From Blautia hydrogenotrophica DSM 10507 (GTDB taxonomy: Bacteria > Bacillota > Clostridia > Lachnospirales > Lachnospiraceae), in assembly GCF_034356035.1 (NCBI RefSeq), contig NZ_CP136423.1, forward strand, positions 3,162,001 through 3,226,000: 64,000 bases of DNA. Direction: 5' to 3'. The translations under genes and the position numbers were made by a program. Positions within the stretch are counted from its first letter, which is position 1; every line of letters starts with the position of its first letter. The notes beneath the pieces are model-generated. The model was not told the DNA's origin. It saw only the letters and a program-made list of their open reading frames with translations, and ran no database searches. Of this stretch, positions 843-62,536 are shown piece after piece.

Positions 843-985
843 AATAACACCTCATATATCCTTTCTAGCCCATAGTATAACATATATCTTAAAAAAATCA
901 ATACTTTCTCATAACATTTGTAACATTTACGTAATATTTCCACTATCCGTATATCACTGTTCCACAAGGTGTTTCACATATACAA

Positions 986-1151
986 AGTTGACTCGCCTCC
1001 CCATTCCCTTAATTTCGAAGGGCGTAATCCCACTTAACGTACCGCCGCAACACCGCAAAGCCATAAAATTCTCATATTGCGGGATATGCATCCTGCCCGG
1101 AGAATTTTATTTATTAGGAAATCCAACGGAATAACCTAGTAAATAAAAAGG
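986..1151 (+). repeat. Element A copy 1 (diverged)
   Basis: A degenerate copy of the intergenic element that recurs through the window. Recognisable parts are the CCCTT/AAGGG hairpin, the CCGCAACACCGC block, TTGCGG, and TGCATCCTGCCCGGAG. The terminal hairpin pairs 1105-1118 with 1135-1148 (TTTTATTTATTAGG with CCTAGTAAATAAAA, one G-T wobble). Its right arm forms the T-tract of the minus-strand spoVG terminator. The rest of the 843-1208 gap holds only AT-rich sequence and the promoter side of the hydrolase gene. Confidence 0.75.
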
Positions 1152-9399: not shown

Positions 9400-9612
9400 C
9401 CTTTTTGTGCTTCACTGCAGCATTTCTCCCTTGGTGGAGCGTTTGTGTAAAAGGGAAGAACCATAGCATTTTATGTTGTGGTTCTTTTTTTATGTAAAAG
9501 GAGAAATTTTACCGCAAAGCAGCGTTGTAGCGGCGCGCAAACTGAGCTGTGCCCCTCAAAGATTAATGAGATGGGAGAGTTGAAGTGAACTTACTCACTT
9601 TATTTTGCAATA
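9400..9612 (-). repeat. Element A copy 2 (split around a terminator)
   Basis: The part at 9490-9612 is a minus-orientation copy. Its complement reads AAAGTGAGTAAGTTCACTT, then CTTTGAGGGG, TTTGCGCGCCGC and GCGGTAAAATTTCTC. A short plus-orientation piece (TTGGTGGAGCGTTTGTGTAAAAGG) lies at 9430-9455, so the prs terminator sits between two element A fragments. This accounts for most of the 9384-9697 gap. Confidence 0.6.
9456..9490 (+). terminator. Terminator of the dnaD-dnaC-prs operon
   Basis: AAGAACCATAGCA and TGTGGTTCTT pair around a TTTTA loop, followed by TTTTTTT. It is flanked by element A fragments on both sides. Confidence 0.75.
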
Positions 9613-17870: not shown

Positions 17871-17914
17871 ACCAGCCTTCTCCTTTATCCGCAGCTTATT
17901 ATAATCCCAAAAGA

Positions 17915-18103
17915 ACAAAGTGGGGAAACCCACTTCAGCTCCTCCATCTCTTCAATTTTGAAGGGCGCAGCTCACTTTGCGTGCCGAACACAGTCTCCTA
18001 CGGCATCCTATCTCTCGTGTAAGTGCGCATCTTTAGTGGAGCGTTTATGTGATAGGAAAGGGCTTTCACGCATTAGATAACAAAGTCTTTCCTCTCACAT
18101 AAT
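17915..18103 (+). repeat. Element A copy 3 (full length, diverged)
   Basis: All parts are present: AAGTGGGG/CCCACTT hairpin; CTTCAA/TTGAAG hairpin (consensus CCTCAA/TTGAGG, a compensated change); the GCGTGCC block; TGCGCATCTTTAGTGGAGCG; and the terminal hairpin ATGTGATAGGAAAG (18047-18060) with CTTTCCTCTCACAT (18087-18100), one mismatch. The terminator of the SGNH gene follows at once. Confidence 0.8.
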
Positions 18104-18110
18104 AAATAAC

Positions 18111-24357: not shown

Positions 24358-24717
24358 CTAAAAATACCTGTGACACCGATGCCTTCGGCATCTCCTCCTG
24401 GATATCTCCTGGTACAAAAGCACTTGAATCAGCTCATCTAGGTATCCCCGGTGTCTCTCCTGAACCTGTGTCACATCCTTCTTAATCTGATCGCAGATAT
24501 GGTACAACATATATTTATCCGGATACTCATCGTACAGCATACTGCCTTCGTAGTCCATCCGCTCACACTCCTCCTCCACTCTCTTTTGAATCTGCTGGAC
24601 TGTCTGCGGATAATAAGACTTCATCATCTGAAATTCTTTCTCCTGTATACGCTCCCCGTCGTAAAGAGCCGGATTCGCATAGGCCACATAGAAGGGAAAA
24701 AATTTATCATAATACAT
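24358..24717 (-). CDS. Small hypothetical protein with Arg/Cys/His-rich tail
   Basis: 119 residues, not recognised. The body is helical and acidic (EEECERMDYEGSMLYDEYPDK), and the tail RRRCRRHRCHRYF is strongly basic with two Cys and two His. GAGGAG lies 12 bases before the ATG, and there is no alternative start upstream because of an in-frame stop. It is the first gene of the operon with the methyltransferase and the membrane-anchored protein. The basic tail might bind nucleic acid or metal; this is only a suggestion. Confidence 0.7.
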   Translation of the reverse strand: MYYDKFFPFYVAYANPALYDGERIQEKEFQMMKSYYPQTVQQIQKRVEEECERMDYEGSMLYDEYPDKYMLYHICDQIKKDVTQVQERHRGYLDELIQVLLYQEISRRRCRRHRCHRYF

Positions 24718-24770
24718 AGACGAATTGTACTCCTCATTCAGAATGGTCTGTTACAGTATATGCGCATCTT

Positions 24771-24839
24771 TTCAGAGTGTGCATCTTAGCAGGACGTTTT
24801 TATTGCATAGGAAACTTCGTTTCCTATGCAATAAAAACG
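24771..24839 (+). repeat. Element A copy 4 (terminal part only)
   Basis: TGTGCATCTTAGCAGGACG is followed by a perfect 21-bp inverted repeat, 24795-24815 with 24819-24839, around a TTC loop (core ATTGCATAGGAAAC/GTTTCCTATGCAAT). The right arm supplies the T-tract of the minus-strand murF terminator. Confidence 0.8.
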
Positions 24840-35150: not shown

Positions 35151-35341
35151 AATAAAGTGGGCGAGCCCACTTCAACTTCCCCTTCCCCTCAATCTTTGTG
35201 GGGCGCATCCCACTTTGCGCGCCGCTGCAACACCACTTTGCGGTGAACTGCCTTATTGTAACTTGCGTATCCTTAGCGGAATATTTGTGTAATAGGAAAA
35301 AACTTTTACACATTAGTGTAACAAGGTCTTTACTATTGCAA
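35151..35341 (+). repeat. Element A copy 5 (full length)
   Basis: AAGTGGGCGAGCCCACTT hairpin, GCGCGCCGCTGCAACACC, TTGCGGTGAA, CGTATCCTTAGCGGAATAT, and a terminal hairpin TGTAATAG (35288-35295) with CTATTGCA (35333-35340) around an ACACATTAGTGTAACAAGG-type loop. The end runs straight into the metG terminator T-tract. Confidence 0.85.
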
Positions 35342-35375
35342 AAAAAGAGCCGTCTGTTTTTTGACAGCTCTTTTT
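35342..35375. terminator. metG terminator
   Basis: AAAAAGAGCCGTC (35342-35354) pairs with GACAGCTCTTTTT (35363-35375), one mismatch. On the minus strand it ends in CTTTTTTTGC, which continues into element A copy 5. Confidence 0.8.
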
Positions 35376-37432: not shown

Positions 37433-37493
37433 TATAAAGTGGGCAAGCCCACTTCAACTCCCCATCCCTAGCGGAGCATTTTTATTATTAAGA
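37433..37493 (+). repeat. Element A copy 6 (internally deleted)
   Basis: The first hairpin AAGTGGGCAAGCCCACTT is joined directly to CATCCCTAGCGGAGCATTTTTATTATTAAG, so the middle two hairpins are missing and the terminal hairpin lacks its partner arm. Confidence 0.7.
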
Positions 37494-37528
37494 AAAGATT
37501 AGCATAGTTTCCCGCTTTTGTAAATACC

Positions 37529-37578: not shown

Positions 37579-37704
37579 CAGAACAAAGTGGGCAAGCCCA
37601 CTTCAGTTCCCCTATCTCCTCAATCTTGAGCGGCGCGTCCCACTTTGCACGCCGCAGAAGTACCGCAAAACGGTGAAATTCCTTATTGCGGCGTGCGCAT
37701 TCTT
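37579..37704 (+). repeat. Element A copy 7 (lacks terminal hairpin)
   Basis: AAGTGGGCAAGCCCACTT, CTCAATCTTGAGCGGCGCG, TTGCACGCCGC, AAACGGTGAAATTCC, TTGCGGCGTGTGCATTC, then it stops within a few bases of the last codon of the thi operon. No independent terminator is visible between the operon and the repeat. Confidence 0.75.
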
Positions 37705-37706
37705 TT

Positions 37707-38450
37707 CTAGTTTATTTCTATTTTTTCCAGAACTCTCCTCTTATATTCCAGAAACTCTTCCGTAAGACTAAAGTCATTTCTTCTAGGCTTCGGCTCCCGA
37801 ATGCAAATCTCATCCACGATACTGCCTGGGTTTTTGCCCAGAATATAGATACGGTCCGACAAGAGCACCGCCTCATCTACGTCATGAGTGATAAAGATTG
37901 TGGATAGATGAATCCGCTCCATAACGTCTAGATACCATCTGTGCATTGCATTCTTTGTCAGCGTATCCAGAGCTGAAAATGGCTCGTCTAAAAGAGCAAT
38001 TTTATCGGAAAACAGATAAGTTCTCAAAAGAGCTGCTCTCTGTCTCATCCCTCCCGAGAGCTGAGACGGATATTTTTTCTGCGTCCCCTCCAAACCAAAA
38101 GCTTCAAAATACGGACTCACCTTTTGGCGGGCCTCCTTTTTCTTCATCCCTCCGATCAAGAGCGGCAAGGCAACATTGTCCTCTACAGTCCGATAAGGCA
38201 GCAGCAAATCCTTCTGCAGCATATAGCTGACTTTTCCCGGCTGGCCCGTAATCTCTTCTTCCTCTAAAAAGACCTGCCCCTCATCCGGCCTTAAAAGGCC
38301 AGATATAATATTAAACAGTGTCGTCTTTCCAGCTCCACTGACTCCTAAAAGCCCCACTAATTCTTTCTCATGTATTTCAATGGAAACATTGTCCAAGACT
38401 TTTTTCTCATCGAAGGTCTTTGATACGTTTACTACTCGTAACTTCGCCAT
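37707..38450 (-). CDS. thiZ: ABC transporter ATP-binding protein for thiamine precursor (ThiZ/SsuB-type)
   Basis: 247 residues. Walker A GVSGAGKTTLF, Q-loop MLQKDLLLPY, signature LSGGMRQRAAL, Walker B IALLDEPFSALD, and H-loop THDVDEA. The closest class is the nitrate/sulfonate/taurine-HMP group. It forms the last gene of a four-gene operon with the thiamine-binding protein, ThiX and ThiY under a TPP riboswitch, so the substrate is most likely the pyrimidine precursor (HMP or formyl-aminopyrimidine). It lies 2 bases after the ThiY gene. Confidence 0.88.
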   Translation of the reverse strand: MAKLRVVNVSKTFDEKKVLDNVSIEIHEKELVGLLGVSGAGKTTLFNIISGLLRPDEGQVFLEEEEITGQPGKVSYMLQKDLLLPYRTVEDNVALPLLIGGMKKKEARQKVSPYFEAFGLEGTQKKYPSQLSGGMRQRAALLRTYLFSDKIALLDEPFSALDTLTKNAMHRWYLDVMERIHLSTIFITHDVDEAVLLSDRIYILGKNPGSIVDEICIREPKPRRNDFSLTEEFLEYKRRVLEKIEIN

Positions 38451-38452
38451 TC

Positions 38453-39463
38453 TTACTCATCCTGTCCCGGCAGATAATCGTTAGAAAATCCTGCGTCACT
38501 GGGAATCTCCTCTTCTGTCAGACCTTTTTCATCCAGCCACGCATAAAATCCGTTCCAACGCTCTGGGTCAATGTATCCCCAGTATTTTGCATCTGCCACA
38601 TAGTAATCTTTTAAATATTCCTGGCTGGCAAGAACTAGACTCTCATCCAATTCCGGCACTTCCCCGCAAAGGATAGATGCCGCCTCTTCCGGGTCCTGAA
38701 TCGCGTCTTCATATCCCTTGCCCAGTGCTCTCAAAAATTTTTTCGCTGTCTCCGGTTCTTCTTTTAAAAACTCGTTGTTCGCAATCACTACTGGCGTATA
38801 ATAGTCAAACACCGGATCGATATCTCGAAATGCAAAGTAGTCTGTAGCCAGCTTGGCCTCCTCAGTAGCAATACCACCCCACGCATAGAAAATCCAGATC
38901 GCATCTACAGATTTTGACTTCAAAGCCGACACCTCGTCGGTGACTGTATTGGGAATTAGCTCTACTTTACTGAAATCTCCACCATCTGCTTCTACAACCT
39001 CCTTCATCATGGCAGTCTCAATCGCACCGTTCCAGGTCGCATATTTCTTTCCCTCTAACCCTTTGGGGCGGTCCATCCCTTCCCCTTTTCTAGAGATGAT
39101 TCCAGAAGTATTGTGCTGTACCAGTGCGGCCACAGCTGTCGTCGGCAAAGCATCGGCCCCTGCCACGCCTGGCGCCATGGTATCCTGGAATGACACGCCA
39201 AACTGTGCTTTTCCAGATGCAACCAAAGCATCTGCTCCATCCTCAGGCGGCTGTACAATCTCCACTTCCAGCCCCTCGTCGCTGAAATAGCCTTTTTCCT
39301 GCGCCACATACAATCCCGTGTGATTCGTATTCGGCGTCCAGTCCAAGACAAACGTAAGCTTTTCTTTTTCCTCCGACTTGGGCTCATTTTTATTTCCCTG
39401 GCAGGCTGTCAGGGAAGCCAACAAGCAGACAGACAGAGTCGCCGCAAGTATTTTTTTCTTCAT
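38453..39463 (-). CDS. thiY: Thiamine-pyrimidine-precursor substrate-binding lipoprotein (ThiY/THI5-like)
   Basis: 336 residues. Lipoprotein signal (LSVCLLASLTACQGN, lipobox L-T-A-C). The mature protein has the NMT1/THI5 fold: LDWTPNTNHTGLYVAQEKGYF near residue 40, VQPPEDGADALVASGKAQFG, and WNGAIETAMMKEVVE. It binds HMP or a formylated aminopyrimidine outside the membrane and delivers it to ThiX/ThiZ. Role is inferred from family and from the upstream TPP riboswitch. It ends 2 bases before thiZ and starts 10 bases after thiX. Confidence 0.9.
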   Translation of the reverse strand: MKKKILAATLSVCLLASLTACQGNKNEPKSEEKEKLTFVLDWTPNTNHTGLYVAQEKGYFSDEGLEVEIVQPPEDGADALVASGKAQFGVSFQDTMAPGVAGADALPTTAVAALVQHNTSGIISRKGEGMDRPKGLEGKKYATWNGAIETAMMKEVVEADGGDFSKVELIPNTVTDEVSALKSKSVDAIWIFYAWGGIATEEAKLATDYFAFRDIDPVFDYYTPVVIANNEFLKEEPETAKKFLRALGKGYEDAIQDPEEAASILCGEVPELDESLVLASQEYLKDYYVADAKYWGYIDPERWNGFYAWLDEKGLTEEEIPSDAGFSNDYLPGQDE

Positions 39464-39473
39464 ATTTTTCTCC

Positions 39474-40238
39474 TTATCGCTTTGATTCCCATGCCATACA
39501 ACGTTTTTGCAGCAAGTCTACCAGTTTCATCAAGATCAGACTGATAACAGAAATCAATAATATAACAGCAAACATTTTGTCAAACGCGAAGGATTTCTTT
39601 ACCCTCGTCATATACACTCCAAGACCTTCAAAACCTCCCAGCCACTCAGAAATCACAGCTCCTACAACCGCATAAGACGCCGAGATTCTCAGACTGGCAA
39701 AAAACTGCCCCATAGCCCCAGGAAGTTTAATATATCGAAAAATCTGTATCTTTCCCGCTCCCATGGAACGGAGCAGATTAACGGCATCCTTGTCCGCCGA
39801 CCGGAAGCCGTTCAGAAGCCCCACAGTGATTGGAAAAAATGTCACAATGACAATCAAAATCACCTTTGGCAGCATCTCGTATCCAAACCATAGTACCAAA
39901 AGAGGTGCGATAGCCACCGTGGGAATTGTCTGGGTCACAACCACCAATGGGTACAGTGCCTGATAAAGCTTTGCAAAGTGATCCATAGCCGCAGCCATCA
40001 AAAACCCCGCCACCACTCCACAGCCTAATCCCAGAAAGGCTTCTGCCAGTGTCACTTTGGCATTCTCCATCAGCAAAGGAAATTCGTTGATAAACGCCTG
40101 ACACACTGCCACTGGAGACGGCAGCATATAGCTGGGCACAATTCCCAGCACGGATACTGCCTCCCACACCACTAGAATCACCGCCAGAGCTGTGATCGAC
40201 CAAACTTTACTGGTGATGTTTTGTAACTTTTTTCTCAA
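39474..40238 (-). CDS. thiX: ABC transporter permease for thiamine precursor (ThiX/SsuC-type)
   Basis: 254 residues with six membrane helices and the EAA loop near RSMGAGKIQIFRYIKLPGAM. It starts with TTG (40238), preceded by AAGGAG 12 bases upstream, and overlaps the previous gene by 32 bases; no ATG exists near the N-terminus, so the TTG is needed. It forms the channel for the ThiY-bound pyrimidine. Member of the BPD_transp_1 family. Confidence 0.88.
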   Translation of the reverse strand: MRKKLQNITSKVWSITALAVILVVWEAVSVLGIVPSYMLPSPVAVCQAFINEFPLLMENAKVTLAEAFLGLGCGVVAGFLMAAAMDHFAKLYQALYPLVVVTQTIPTVAIAPLLVLWFGYEMLPKVILIVIVTFFPITVGLLNGFRSADKDAVNLLRSMGAGKIQIFRYIKLPGAMGQFFASLRISASYAVVGAVISEWLGGFEGLGVYMTRVKKSFAFDKMFAVILLISVISLILMKLVDLLQKRCMAWESKR

Positions 40239-40503
40239 TAGAAAGCACGTCTCCTTCCGGCCTGTAGCTCACTTTTATATAAGCTGCCACGTGGGGAGCC
40301 CCTGCCCTCACTGCAATGTGCTGGCATTCCTTTACGATATCCATCAGCTCATCGTAGTCCCCTTCGATGGTCGTCTCAAACGGTCCCACATAATAGTTCA
40401 GTCCCGTACCTTTGATGTAGGCAATCACCTCATCCACAATACGAATCAGTTCCTCATCATTTGCCGCGTCCGGTAAGGACTGAATAGCTACACTTGCATT
40501 CAT
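40207..40503 (-). CDS. Thiamine-binding protein (MTH1187/YkoF-like, UPF0045)
   Basis: 98 residues, ferredoxin-like fold: VAIQSLPDAANDEELIRIVD, YVGPFETTIEGDYDELMDIV, VAAYIKVSYRPEG. Proteins of this family bind thiamine or hydroxymethylpyrimidine in the cytoplasm. TAGGAGGT lies 8 bases before the ATG. It is the first gene of the TPP-riboswitch operon, but more than 500 bases separate it from the riboswitch because two element A copies lie between. Confidence 0.88.
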   Translation of the reverse strand: MNASVAIQSLPDAANDEELIRIVDEVIAYIKGTGLNYYVGPFETTIEGDYDELMDIVKECQHIAVRAGAPHVAAYIKVSYRPEGDVLSIEKKVTKHHQ

Positions 40504-40582: not shown

Positions 40583-40632
40583 TATAGGAGAAAACTTTCA
40601 CACATTAGCGTAGCAATGTCCTTTCTGTTGCA
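40583..40632 (+). repeat. Element A copy 8 (tail fragment)
   Basis: ACTTTCACACATTAGCGTA then CAATGTCCTTTCTGTTGCA corresponds to the loop and right arm of the terminal hairpin. It is joined directly to copy 9, so the array is tandem. Confidence 0.7.
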
Positions 40633-40635
40633 GGG

Positions 40636-40825
40636 AACAAAGTGGGCAAGCCCACTTCAACTCCCTCAATCCCTCAATCTTTGAGGGGCGCGTCCCACTT
40701 TGCGCGCCGCCGCAACACCGCTTCGCGGTGAAATTCCTCATTGCGGCGTGTGCATCCCTAGCAGAGCGTTTATGCAATAGGAAAGGACTTTCACACTTCA
40801 GCGTAACAAGGTCTTTTCTATTGCA
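40636..40825 (+). repeat. Element A copy 9 (full length, best example)
   Basis: Five hairpins in order: AAGTGGGCAAGCCCACTT; CCTCAATCTTTGAGG; GGCGCG-tcccacttt-CGCGCC; CCGCAA enclosing CACCGCttcgCGGTG and closing with TTGCGG; and the terminal TGCAATAGGAAAGGAC (40773-40788) with GTCTTTTCTATTGCA (40811-40825). TGTGCATCCCTAGCAGAGCG precedes the last. Confidence 0.9.
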
Positions 40826-41001
40826 GAACAAAGCGGGCAAGCCCACTTCAACTCCCTCAACCCCTCAATCTTTGAAGGGCGCGTCCCACTTTGCGCGCCG
40901 CCGCAACACCGCCTCGCGGTGAAATTCCTCATTGCGGCGTGTGCATCCTGCCCGGAGGGCTTTTTATTGTATAGGGAACGAAGTTTCCTATACAATAAAA
41001 A
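40826..41001 (+). repeat. Element A copy 10 (short-loop terminal hairpin)
   Basis: Nearly identical to copy 9 through TTGCGGCGTGTGCATCC, then TGCCCGGAGGGC and a terminal hairpin 40961-40979 with 40983-41001 (core TTGTATAGGGAAC / GTTTCCTATACAA) around a three-base GAA loop. Its right arm is the T-tract of the riboswitch terminator. Confidence 0.88.
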
Positions 41002-41028
41002 AACTTCTGCCAGAATCTCCGACAGAAG
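41002..41028 (-). terminator. Attenuator/terminator of the TPP riboswitch
   Basis: On the minus strand CTTCTGTC-ggagattct-GGCAGAAG is followed by TTTTTTTATTG. It lies about 45 bases after the aptamer. Confidence 0.8.
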
Positions 41029-41071
41029 GTTTCATCTTCTATGACAGGAATGGGTTCCCAGCCATTTTTAT

Positions 41072-41161
41072 ATGAGCCTACGCCGGTATTATCCGGATCA
41101 GGTTGCGAGTCTAAGACGATCTCAGTCTTACTCTCAGCCGGATTTACTCCAGCTCCCCGTT
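41072..41161 (-). ncRNA. TPP riboswitch (THI box)
   Basis: On the minus strand the conserved aptamer parts appear in order: ACGGGGAGC, GGCTGAGAG, ACCTGATCCGGATAATACC, GGCGTAGGCTC. The closing stem pairs GAGC with GCTC. A variable P3-like stem (AAGACtgagatcGTCTT) lies between CTGAGA and ACCTGATC. Downstream are a terminator hairpin and the thiamine-precursor transporter operon, so TPP should cause premature termination. The promoter is at 41173-41201. Confidence 0.95.
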
Positions 41162-41172
41162 TTCACTATTTC

Positions 41173-43275: not shown

Positions 43276-43307
43276 AAAGGGACAGGCTTGATGCCTGTTC
43301 CTTTTTT
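43276..43307 (+). terminator. Rubrerythrin terminator
   Basis: AAAGGGACAGGC-ttgat-GCCTGTTCCTTT (12 bp, one G-T) followed by TTTT. The T-tract is the start of element A copy 11. Confidence 0.85.
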
Positions 43308-43401
43308 GTTTCATAAGAAACTGACGTTCTTATGAAACAAAAAATGCTCCGCGTAGATCGTACTGCGGTGGAAAGAAGACGGCACTTTGCACCTCGCCGC
43401 A
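43302..43401 (-). repeat. Element A copy 11 (minus orientation, partial)
   Basis: The terminal hairpin pairs 43302-43319 with 43327-43344 (TTTTTTGTTTCATAAGAA type, 18 bp, loop ACTGACG), followed by ATGCTCCGCG, TGCGGTGGAAAGAAG and GGCACTTTGCACC, which match the GGAGCG, CGCGGTG and CACTTTGCGCG blocks of the consensus complement. Confidence 0.65.
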
Positions 43402-43407
43402 GGCCAA

Positions 43408-43433
43408 GAATCCTGCAAGCAGGATTTTTTTCT
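43408..43433 (+). terminator. Second terminator-like hairpin after element A copy 11
   Basis: AATCCTGC-aa-GCAGGATTTTTTT, an orphan intrinsic terminator in the plus direction. Confidence 0.55.
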
Positions 43434-50583: not shown

Positions 50584-50691
50584 GTTGCAATTCAGACCTC
50601 CAATATCCCACGCCAAACTGCTGTTCGCAGCAGTTTGTGTGCATCGCGAAGCGTATTACTGCTCACGAATTACAAGTGAGTGAATGGAGAC
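50584..50691 (+). repeat. Element B copy 2
   Basis: CAATTCAGACCTCCAATATCCC, then AAACTGCTG-ttcg-CAGCAGTTT, TGTGCATCGCGAAGC, TTACTGCTCAC and GAGTGAA. It matches the repeat at 56964-57118 in order. It lies directly after the mfd stop. Confidence 0.7.
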
Positions 50692-55602: not shown

Positions 55603-56772
55603 CTATAATCCAAACAACTCGCTCAACTGATCTTCTTTCAGCTTAGAACCGATCACACACAGACGACCGGTATATTCCGGAGCCCCTTCTCTTAACTGAG
55701 TCTCCTCCGGCACCATGTCGAAGTAAATCCAGGTTCCATCCTCTCCCGGCAGCATTCCCTTCGCTCTCAGTATGATTCCATACTTCTCATCCTTTGAGAG
55801 CTGGTCTAGAATCTTTTGCAGCTGTTCTTTCGTGTATTTTTTCACGGTCTCACGGCCCCAACTTGTAAACACCTCATCGGCATGATGATGGTGGTGATCG
55901 TGTCCGCAGTGCTCGTGGTCGTGGTGATGTTCATGCTCATGACAGTGTTCATGGTCGTGATGATGCTCATGATCGTGGCAGTGTTCATGGTCGTGATGAT
56001 GCTCATGATCGTGGTGATGCTCATGATCGTGGCAATGCTCATGGTCGTGGCAATGCTCATGGTCGTGGTGATGCTCATGATCGTGGTGATGCTCATGGTC
56101 GTGGTGATGCTCATGGTCATGGTGATGTCCGCATACCGGGCACACTTCCTCCGCCAGCAACTCTTCCTGGAGAGAAATTGGATGCTCCATGACATCTAAG
56201 ATCTTCGCACCATCCAGCTTCTCAATCGGTGTGGTCACAATCGCCGCTGCCTTGTTGATCTCTCTTAGCATCTCTCTGCACTGTTCTGCCTTCTGCTCGT
56301 CGATCAGATCTGTTCGGCTCAGGATAATCGCCCCTGCATATGCTACCTGATTGTTGAAGAATTCTCCGAAATTTCTCATATACATCTTACACTTTTTCGC
56401 ATCCACCACAGTCGTATAGGAGTTCAAAACCAACTCTGCCTCTTTTTGCACTCCCTGGACAGCCTTGATTACATCTGACAATTTTCCTACTCCCGACGGC
56501 TCAATCAGAATACGGTCCGGGTGGTACTGGCCAATCACTTCTTTCAGAGAAGCTCCGAAATCACCCACCAGAGAACAGCAGATACAACCAGAATTCATCT
56601 CACGAATCTGAATTCCAGCCTCCTTCAGAAAACCACCGTCGATTCCAATCTCACCAAACTCATTTTCAATCAGAACCACTTGTTCCCCCTGAAAAGCCTC
56701 CTTCAGAAGTTTTTTAATCAAGGTCGTCTTCCCTGCTCCGAGAAAACCTGAAATAATGTCTATCTTTGTCAT
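55603..56772 (-). CDS. CobW/ZNG1-type GTP-binding metallochaperone with a His-rich repeat array
   Basis: 389 residues. GTPase motifs: GFLGAGKTTLIKKLL (Walker A), the metal-binding MNSGCICCSL (CxCC) and ILIEPSGVGKLSDV, SRTDLIDE. After CPVCGH (about 217) comes an array of twelve hexapeptides of the form (H/C)HDHEH, covering DNA 55905-56125, ending with GHDHHHHH. A CobW_C domain finishes the protein (WIYFDMVPEE). Proteins of this family deliver zinc or other metals to client enzymes using GTP. Zinc storage by the array is inference. It is the first gene of a two-gene operon. Confidence 0.9.
   Translation of the reverse strand: MTKIDIISGFLGAGKTTLIKKLLKEAFQGEQVVLIENEFGEIGIDGGFLKEAGIQIREMNSGCICCSLVGDFGASLKEVIGQYHPDRILIEPSGVGKLSDVIKAVQGVQKEAELVLNSYTTVVDAKKCKMYMRNFGEFFNNQVAYAGAIILSRTDLIDEQKAEQCREMLREINKAAAIVTTPIEKLDGAKILDVMEHPISLQEELLAEEVCPVCGHHHDHEHHHDHEHHHDHEHHHDHEHCHDHEHCHDHEHHHDHEHHHDHEHCHDHEHHHDHEHCHEHEHHHDHEHCGHDHHHHHADEVFTSWGRETVKKYTKEQLQKILDQLSKDEKYGIILRAKGMLPGEDGTWIYFDMVPEETQLREGAPEYTGRLCVIGSKLKEDQLSELFGL
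55905..56125. repeat. 18-bp tandem repeat encoding (H/C)HDHEH units
   Basis: About twelve in-frame copies of an 18-base unit (plus strand GTGATGCTCATGATCGTG-like) inside the CobW-type gene. Variation is mainly CAC/TGC (His/Cys) at the first position of the unit. Confidence 0.85.
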
Positions 56773-56963: not shown

Positions 56964-57118
56964 CAGGCCTCCATTATCCCGCGAAGTGTTTTTGTACATT
57001 TTGTACAAAAATCCCGAGACATACTCGCGCCAGACTGCTGTTTACAGCAGTTTGTGTGCATCGCAAAGCTTGTTACTGTTCACGAACCGCAAGTAAGTGA
57101 ACAGTAACAAATCTGCGG
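56964..57118 (+). repeat. Element B copy 3 (longest)
   Basis: TTCAGGCCTCCATTATCCC, TTTTTGTACattttGTACAAAAA, CAGACTGCTGtttaCAGCAGTTTG, TGTGCATCGCAAAGC, then a 12-bp perfect hairpin GTTACTGTTCAC (57072-57083) with GTGAACAGTAAC (57097-57108). Confidence 0.7.
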
Positions 57119-62274: not shown

Positions 62275-62322
62275 CCTTATTGCTCCTCTTCCCTATGTTC
62301 TGTCTACAGTTCCCCAGTATAA

Positions 62323-62513
62323 AACAAAGTGGGCAAGCCCACTTCACCTCCCCCATCCCCTCAATCTTTGAGGGGCGCGTTCCACTTTGCGCGCCGCCGC
62401 AACACCGCTTCGCGGTGAAATTCCTTATTGCGGCGTGTGCATCCTTAGCGGAGCGTTTTTGTAATAGGAAGGAGCTTTCACGCATTAGCGTGACAAGGTC
62501 TTTCCTATTACAT
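62323..62513 (+). repeat. Element A copy 12 (full length)
   Basis: AAGTGGGCAAGCCCACTT, CCTCAATCTTTGAGG, GCGCGCCGCCGCAACACCGC, TTGCGGCGTGTGCATCC, and terminal hairpin TGTAATAGGAA (62460-62470) with TTCCTATTACA (62502-62512). It lies upstream of the kinase start and behind the terminator of the small gene at 62579. Confidence 0.88.
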
Positions 62514-62536
62514 AAGAATAAACTGCAAACAATTAT

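Follow-up and report, generated by a model that had tools for sequence, protein, structure and literature searches.

What kind of element occupies positions 40583-41001, where an earlier note placed a multi-hairpin intergenic repeat with about a dozen copies nearby, and what carries such a repeat from site to site? In the 64-kb window, i.e. the whole stretch of DNA that was analysed, 40583-41001 consists of two head-to-tail copies of the element and the 5' remnant of a third, as determined by nhmmer and by R1, a covariance model built from 36 copies picked for diversity. The copies lie where that note had located them. Copy 1 (40636..40825, +; R1 157.6 bits, E 1.2e-46; also by alignment) contains hairpin 1 (AAGTGGGCAAGCCCACTT), hairpin 2 (CCCTCA..TGAGGG), the nested hairpin, the GGA hairpin with its T-run and a long terminal stem (TGCAATAG..CTATTGCA). 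Directly upstream of it is the remnant (about 40584..40632, +; nhmmer model positions 142-190), the terminal stem of an older, 5'-truncated copy. Copy 2 (40827..41000, +; R1 168 bits, E 8.1e-50) has a short terminal stem (TTTTTATTGTATAGG..CCTATACAATAAAAA) and its end abuts the T-tract of the insertion target, the intrinsic terminator (hairpin and T-tract read from the sequence; 40997..41028, -) of a TPP riboswitch leader. The TPP aptamer lies upstream of the array in the minus-strand direction (41062..41169, -; RF00059 49.7 bits, E 9.7e-7, just under the gathering score of 54.3). The first gene behind the array (40203..40503, -) encodes, on translation, a small protein of 99 residues before the stop, which we take to be thiamine-binding-like; the protein is matched in 23 of the 64 genomes of the genus, source genome counted. 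This small protein gene is followed by genes for an ABC permease, an NMT1/THI5-like protein and an ABC ATPase, and the set behind the riboswitch (37707-40503, -) is probably a thiamine-precursor transport operon.

R1 yields 14 rows at E<=1 in the window, which represent about eleven distinct places because several rows are the antisense reading of a palindromic stem, and the earlier estimate of about a dozen copies was therefore a fair one. The best full copy is at 62323..62517 (+, 177.1 bits), a further one is at 35151..35345 (+, 131.2 bits), and the full copy at 17914..18104 (+, 113.6 bits) is diverged in its middle. The 5' part of the copy at 37582..37772 (+, 100.1 bits) is clear, and its 3' part runs into the end of the ABC transporter gene (37707); close to it, a fragment at 37433..37496 (+, 38.9 bits) holds part of hairpin 1. 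Diverged copies are present at 982..1148 (+, 60 bits, stem TTATTTATTAGG) and 43304..43430 (-, 48.4 bits, stem TTTCATAAGAA), the 5' part of a copy lies in the opposite orientation at 9485..9604 (-, 48.7 bits), and the match at 24697..24836 (+, 39.9 bits) is mostly terminal stem (TTTTTATTGCATAGG palindrome).

The element is a real family of ~140-195 bp. R1 matches the source genome at least 150 times, always at E <= 2e-5, the weaker matches being diverged or partial; whole-genome BLAST returned 75 rows, 49 of which (122-221 bases matched) were taken as copies, at 40 sites. In a Lachnospiraceae sample R1 matches were found in 182 of 298 genomes and in 173 of 280 genera (E <= 0.001), so that few interspersed repeats of this major family of gut bacteria may be more common. 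Of 299 genomes sampled across the phylum, just two match (E <= 1e-6), both of them Lachnospiraceae. Congeners carry related copies that are about 75% identical. When named genomes were scanned with a pattern, the matches listed (80 loci of at least 118 stretches) included, besides Blautia, copies in [Clostridium] aminophilum, in Lachnoclostridium and in further Lachnospiraceae, alongside chance matches to other phyla. Most of a set of 26 pattern hits came from other phyla; one of the 26, in an unclassified bacterium, was a strong R1 match and four were weak ones. The strong match (L135, 1344-1606, +; 54.2 bits) is on a contig titled only 'bacterium'. One named locus (L101, Blautia sp. Marseille-P3087) is identical to a locus of the congener G029 (L045) over 3,159 bases. 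Copies are homogenised within genomes into lineage-specific subfamilies: in the source genome nearest-neighbour identity reaches at most 95.8% with a median of 90% (45 copies), and in G029 eight of nine copies are 97-99% identical to their nearest neighbour, so the element has been active there recently. The phages and plasmids searched gave no element match, and the single pattern hit in IMG/VR had no R1 match.

No family of Rfam 15 reaches its gathering score on the element in the window and the loci searched, hence the comparison proposed earlier matched no already described RNA family. Below gathering, a BTnc231 match at 1063-1207 (25.1 of 80.4 bits, E 0.61) overlaps one copy and a mir-875 match overlaps another in L032 (30.7 of 84 bits). 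Separately, a Clostridiales-1 RNA at L012 1418-1542 (-) scores 52.1 bits (gathering 48) and overlaps the 5' side of one copy. We recognised no description of the family in our searches of the open-access literature, subscription papers being mostly outside the coverage. As far as these searches and Rfam 15 (loci searched) reach, the family is uncatalogued.

Read in the orientation of the earlier note, the element consists of AACAAAG, hairpin 1, a C-rich linker, hairpin 2 and TTTGCGCGCC, followed by a nested hairpin in two parts whose bulge bears TTCC, then by GCATCC, a short GGA-loop hairpin with a T-run behind it, and the terminal stem, the foot of which is a T-run paired with an A-run. The conservation of TTTGCGCGCC, TTCC and CGCATCC in the named genomes is partly a matter of locus selection, since the search pattern for these genomes required them. 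The one window copy that was folded is the best one (62318-62515), and its stability is far past chance (RNA z -10.3 on the plus and -7.4 on the minus strand; DNA z -7.9 on the minus strand). Across the 36 diverse copies, 91.0% of the cells of 45 pairs are paired against 76.8% in shuffles, and two-sided changes are seen in 28 of the 45 pairs and in 246 cells, against 85.1 such cells in shuffles, none of 500 of which reaches 246, although shuffles ignore relatedness. When partners are slid by 1-3 columns just 28-60 two-sided cells remain, a comparison that favours the real structure in so far as it was drawn from the same 36 sequences.

Two-sided changes occur in six of the seven helices counted, the exception being the GCG/CGC base that closes the nested hairpin (97.2% paired, zero two-sided changes). 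Of the string of hairpins described earlier, GGCGCG/CGCGCC is nearly invariant and therefore beyond the reach of covariation. Hairpin 2, for which compensated states had been reported from the window, covaries in five of seven pairs. Between lineages hairpin 1 reads AAGTGGGC/GCCCACTT, AAGCGGAC/GTCCGCTT or AGAGGAC/GTCCTCT, and the nested stem CGCCGCAA/TTGCGGCG or CCAGATGCA/TGCATCTGG. Selection on structure, as the earlier note had read the pattern, is strongly indicated by this sequence comparison, because helices are exchanged between lineages for unrelated yet complementary sequence and because the effect is largely gone once partners are slid. The left arm of hairpin 1 has in addition a second covarying partner, P1 (AAAGNG with CNCTTT behind hairpin 2), which is 99.1% paired with 22 two-sided cells against 4.2 in shuffles. 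Reduced forms that have no separate hairpins 1 and 2 (e.g. L108 and L216) retain P1, and this pairing may therefore be older than hairpin 1.

The terminal stem had been said to differ in most copies and yet to stay paired, and the stems named in that claim exist. Counted over 45 of the 49 copies that BLAST found in the source genome (those left out were three partial copies or copies with another terminal stem, array copy 2 included, and one with a 25-nt insertion), the 12-bp stem is 96.8% paired, and eight pairs and 22 cells show two-sided changes against 2.7 and 4.4 in shuffles, with 0 of 500 shuffles reaching these values. Among 111 distinct copies in an alignment fitted to the model there are 55 distinct left arms, and pairing is complete in 61% of the rows that have all 11 pairs, a share that falls to 16.5% when arms are shuffled. 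By model end points the stem has two forms, long-loop and short-loop. In some low-copy genera it has no motif in common with the stem of the source genome and is still paired (CTCAGTCGGAG/CTCCGACTGAG, L336). Duplication of flanking sequence does not account for the changes: the left arm belongs to the element itself, and each site has a flank of its own. A mutational by-product is another way to obtain such a pattern: template switching, by which one hairpin arm is copied onto the other, would keep the pairing without selection, and multi-base compensatory changes of this origin have been described (PMC8794818). The variable part of the element is a long near-perfect palindrome whose arms differ between copies at several positions at once, as this process would have it. 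Yet two-sided changes extend to six of seven helices, the arms of P1 covary while about 55 columns apart across another helix, and single-step intermediates are present in the terminal stem. Template switching may account for part of the terminal-stem pattern; as the cause of the covariation there we consider it very unlikely.

Three-copy tandem arrays occur in G000 at C1 1237642-1238209 and 3308330-3308900. In the latter, the inner right arms mismatch their left arms in part and the copy adjacent to the terminator matches, which suggests growth of the array by recombination.

Read as its reverse complement, the element begins, at most sites, directly after the T-tract of an intrinsic terminator. 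By a deliberately loose test, applied to those 130 of 138 sites that have flanking context, a terminator-like hairpin with a T-run is found at the reverse-complement 5' end in 108 of 130 cases against 18 of 130 at the other end (p 6e-31), and at 436 of 3000 random points. At every position from -7 to -2, between 28 and 38 of 40 sites have a T. The terminator-side gene ends towards the element at 104 of the 120 sites with an assigned gene (gene calls by ORF scoring); at the other 16 it points away, which counts against the explanation we favour below. The targets include regulatory leaders. Besides the window array behind the TPP riboswitch, an Rfam scan of 40 source-genome loci revealed the element behind T-box leaders (L231 and L022), a SAM riboswitch (L224), a glycine riboswitch (L228, 98 nt away) and a tRNA cluster (L233), and in two other genera it lies behind T-boxes (L210 and L343, the T-box of the latter being under gathering).

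The orientation follows replication as well. The GC skew of the source genome switches sign at about 1.8 Mb; of the 150 matches listed, 139 follow the skew. This bias is mostly explained by that of the genes themselves, 326 of 398 of which are on the leading strand in the stretches examined; the share of the element nevertheless exceeds that of the genes (p 0.001). At convergent sites, which offer a terminator on either side, the orientation is 19:5 (p 0.007). By eye, the element ends AACAAAG and TGTAATAGG (reverse complement) are not mutual inverted repeats, and no copy of the T-tract was seen at the far junction of 40 sites and of the occupied TPP leaders, in a check that compared species rather than strains and that a very short duplication could escape.

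In 23 Blautia genomes, source genome counted, we compared the leader that separates the TPP aptamer from the first gene, the unoccupied leaders being those of other species and not of strains of the same species. Three of the 23 carry long copies (L353, which has two, L355 and L363; R1 168, 82.4 and 143.4 bits, respectively), each with its stem starting one base behind the T-tract; in the L355 copy hairpins are fused by deletion. About five others contain remnants, recognised by weak R1 matches (L364, L366, L367) or, the short ones, by eye (L368, L372). The remaining 15 are without a recognisable element, some of them holding 50-257 nt of other sequence in which decayed copies could go unnoticed. 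From T-tract to start codon the distance is 21-28 nt in the four shortest leaders against 208-493 nt in the three with a long copy. The same TPP leader in G009 (L042/L355) carries a different subfamily, in which hairpin 1 and the following loop are fused by deletion. The movement that the earlier note had suspected is thus supported by copy number, by lineage-specific subfamilies, by insertion behind terminators and by the contrast between occupied and unoccupied leaders.

A sequence lodged between an attenuator and its gene might instead serve the host, as a structured RNA or cis-regulator that has turned repetitive, e.g. as a second control step or as a stabiliser of 3' ends. Two mutually exclusive partners of one strand, hairpin 1 and the long-range P1, both covary, and the GGA hairpin with its T-run resembles a terminator. 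A single match at E<=0.01 is all that five genomes have, an oddity if the element is mobile and active and a point against our preferred explanation; in four of the five the element is just upstream of an ORF, and in two it is behind a T-box. Against a host function stand the neighbour proteins, which differ by eye among the 12 low-copy loci translated, the homogenisation of copies into subfamilies within genomes, and the 15 of 23 orthologous TPP leaders in which no element was recognised. We regard a host-beneficial origin as decidedly improbable.

What moves the element was sought among three enzyme classes and among possible gene-bearing relatives. RVT_1 has no match in the element-rich genomes G000, G195, G258, G276 and G200, Y1_Tnp has none in G029, the genome with recently active copies, nor in G258, G207, G320, G276 and G200, and element-rich G258 has none of RVT_1, Y1 and IS110 transposase, each of which is absent from several element-rich genomes. 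A derivative of IS110 (bridge RNA) was rejected as a candidate, with no PF02371 match in G000, G029, G258, G305, G214 and G320. RVT_1, Y1 and IS110 are found in 9, 8 and 8 of 14 element-rich genomes and likewise in 9, 8 and 8 of 14 comparison genomes, hence no association with the element, in a comparison that is imperfect in that 11 of the 14 were without an R1 match (stricter filters, nine candidates scored per genome) and the others (G001, G004 and G016) were picked by BLAST alone, G001 having a partial element match. Among 264 left-half and 352 right-half matches at 333 loci no autonomous, gene-bearing relative was seen: 242 left halves adjoin a right half, six gaps measure 40-200 nt, and the one gap over 600 nt was rejected as such a relative, being two copies around a gene that is presumably metK. 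Fifteen left halves have no right half on their locus, four of them at locus ends and 11 with just 1.4-1.7 kb of sequence left beyond them.

The closest parallel in target choice comes from group IIC (bacterial-C) introns, which integrate directly downstream of rho-independent terminators, with a preference for the lagging-strand template (PMC8919778). They resemble the element in terminator insertion, in sense with the gene (108 of 130 sites for the element), and in strand preference; they differ in that the introns are ribozymes with a reverse transcriptase, whereas the element is about 190 bp long and is also present in RVT_1-less genomes. No group II intron RNA of Rfam was found at gathering in the window or in 40 further element loci, nor at E<=0.5 in 10 more. 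This parallel allows the element to be seen as a retroposon, a bacterial analogue of SINEs, in which the A-rich tail of a plus-strand RNA would pair with the T-tract on a terminator strand that is nicked or nascent, this strand priming reverse transcription by an enzyme borrowed from group IIC introns or from other reverse transcriptases. The plus-strand 3' end does run into the A-run opposite the T-tract. Wobble pairs on the plus strand are in excess (G.T to A.C 95:55) in the 45 BLAST-chosen copies, with the unpaired background leaning the opposite way, and outside the source genome they stand at 21:19 overall and 11:0 in terminal stems, the cells not being independent; over 111 copies, however, the excess is gone (266:241). 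Copies shortened at the 5' and at the 3' side are near equal in number, 45 and 41 of 182 (antisense rows and copies with a short terminal stem included), 20 reverse-transcriptase loci, which carry group II introns by the same Rfam library, have no R1 match, and the element-rich genomes devoid of RVT_1 listed above speak against this route as well. We consider retroposition unlikely.

Elements of the IS200/IS605 type have subterminal hairpins, a target on their 5' side and lagging-template orientation, and lack terminal inverted repeats and target duplication. Similarly, our element has a hairpin close to either end, shows neither terminal inverted repeats nor a visible target duplication, and has its target on the 5' side and a lagging-template orientation, as would a miniature element of this type or a relative of REPs, the folded strand of which a Y1 (HUH) transposase excises from, and inserts into, the lagging-strand template behind a T-rich target. 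The distribution of Y1_Tnp, absent from the six genomes named and present in 8 of 14 element-rich ones, does not fit, the wobble counts do not favour the lagging-template strand, and the sole Y1 match of G000 is partial, at a locus without a real element match. We judge a Y1-driven origin quite unlikely. The partial transposase in question (L070, G000 C1 661896-662099) is an open frame of 117 aa. As sources of the element, three Y1 loci were compared by BLAST and rejected, having short matches alone (best E 0.006) and no R1 match.

As neither a mobilising enzyme nor a gene-bearing relative was found, we read the element as a non-autonomous, terminator-directed mobile element that is moved in trans as a folded single strand, and we think this reading probable. 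We propose that an enzyme supplied in trans would recognise the fold of the travelling single strand, that the A/T-rich foot of the terminal stem would pair with the T-tract of a terminator when this becomes single-stranded, for the most part in the template of the lagging strand, and that the element would be joined there without target duplication. Insertion behind a terminator would spare the host. Hairpin 1 and the TTTGTT behind it (reverse complement) together resemble a new terminator, by which tandem arrays could accumulate. Each lineage would have to keep folding in order to move, and pairing would be preserved while sequences drift. A bolder version, which we put forward as possible but rather doubtful, makes the element a family-wide, structured selfish nucleic acid whose mechanism has no relative among those known. 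An RNA or single strand, folded and shorter than 200 nt, would find terminators by its own fold and by pairing with the T-tract, and either an enzyme that has escaped recognition or the ordinary replication and repair of the host would integrate it. It would then be a bacterial counterpart of SINEs that adds structured RNA to riboswitch and T-box leaders.

With mobility in trans as the preferred reading, the element belongs to the known kind of non-autonomous bacterial repeats, among which it is unusual in its target precision, in the depth of its covariation and in having no identified mobiliser. Nearest in kind, compared by description only, are BOX, RUP and SPRITE of Streptococcus pneumoniae, which are small, folded, intergenic and multi-copy, and are thought to be parasitic and non-autonomous (PMC3049150). 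They mirror the coding bias, with 60.8-63.3% on the leading strand, and BOX and RUP have terminal inverted repeats; unlike them, the element lies right behind terminators, has 139 of 150 listed matches in one orientation and has no terminal inverted repeats. REP, BIME and REPIN repeats, which go with RAYT (Y1) transposases, are likewise palindromic, intergenic and multi-copy, but REPs measure 20-40 bp (PMC3733652), whereas the element forms multi-helix units of about 190 bp and several of its host genomes have no Y1 match. It shares with classical MITEs that it is short, non-autonomous and interspersed, and differs from them in that no terminal inverted repeats and no target-site duplication were seen by eye.

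Targeting of terminators, riboswitch and T-box attenuators included, would mean that 3' ends and regulatory leaders have been changed repeatedly. The many copies with swapped helices are a natural dataset on structure kept under sequence change, and the missing mobilising enzyme is a concrete question whose answer can be found.

The window contains a second repeat of 74 nt at 50611-50684 and 57028-57101, the two copies being 85% alike (CGCCAAACTGCTG..CAGCAGTTTGTGTGCATCGCGAAGCG). It resembles a reduced nested hairpin, GCATC and the loop hairpin of the element, and is not among the R1 matches of the window. At 55874-56161, eleven overlapping copies lie in register with an 18-nt spacing and overlap a long open reading frame.
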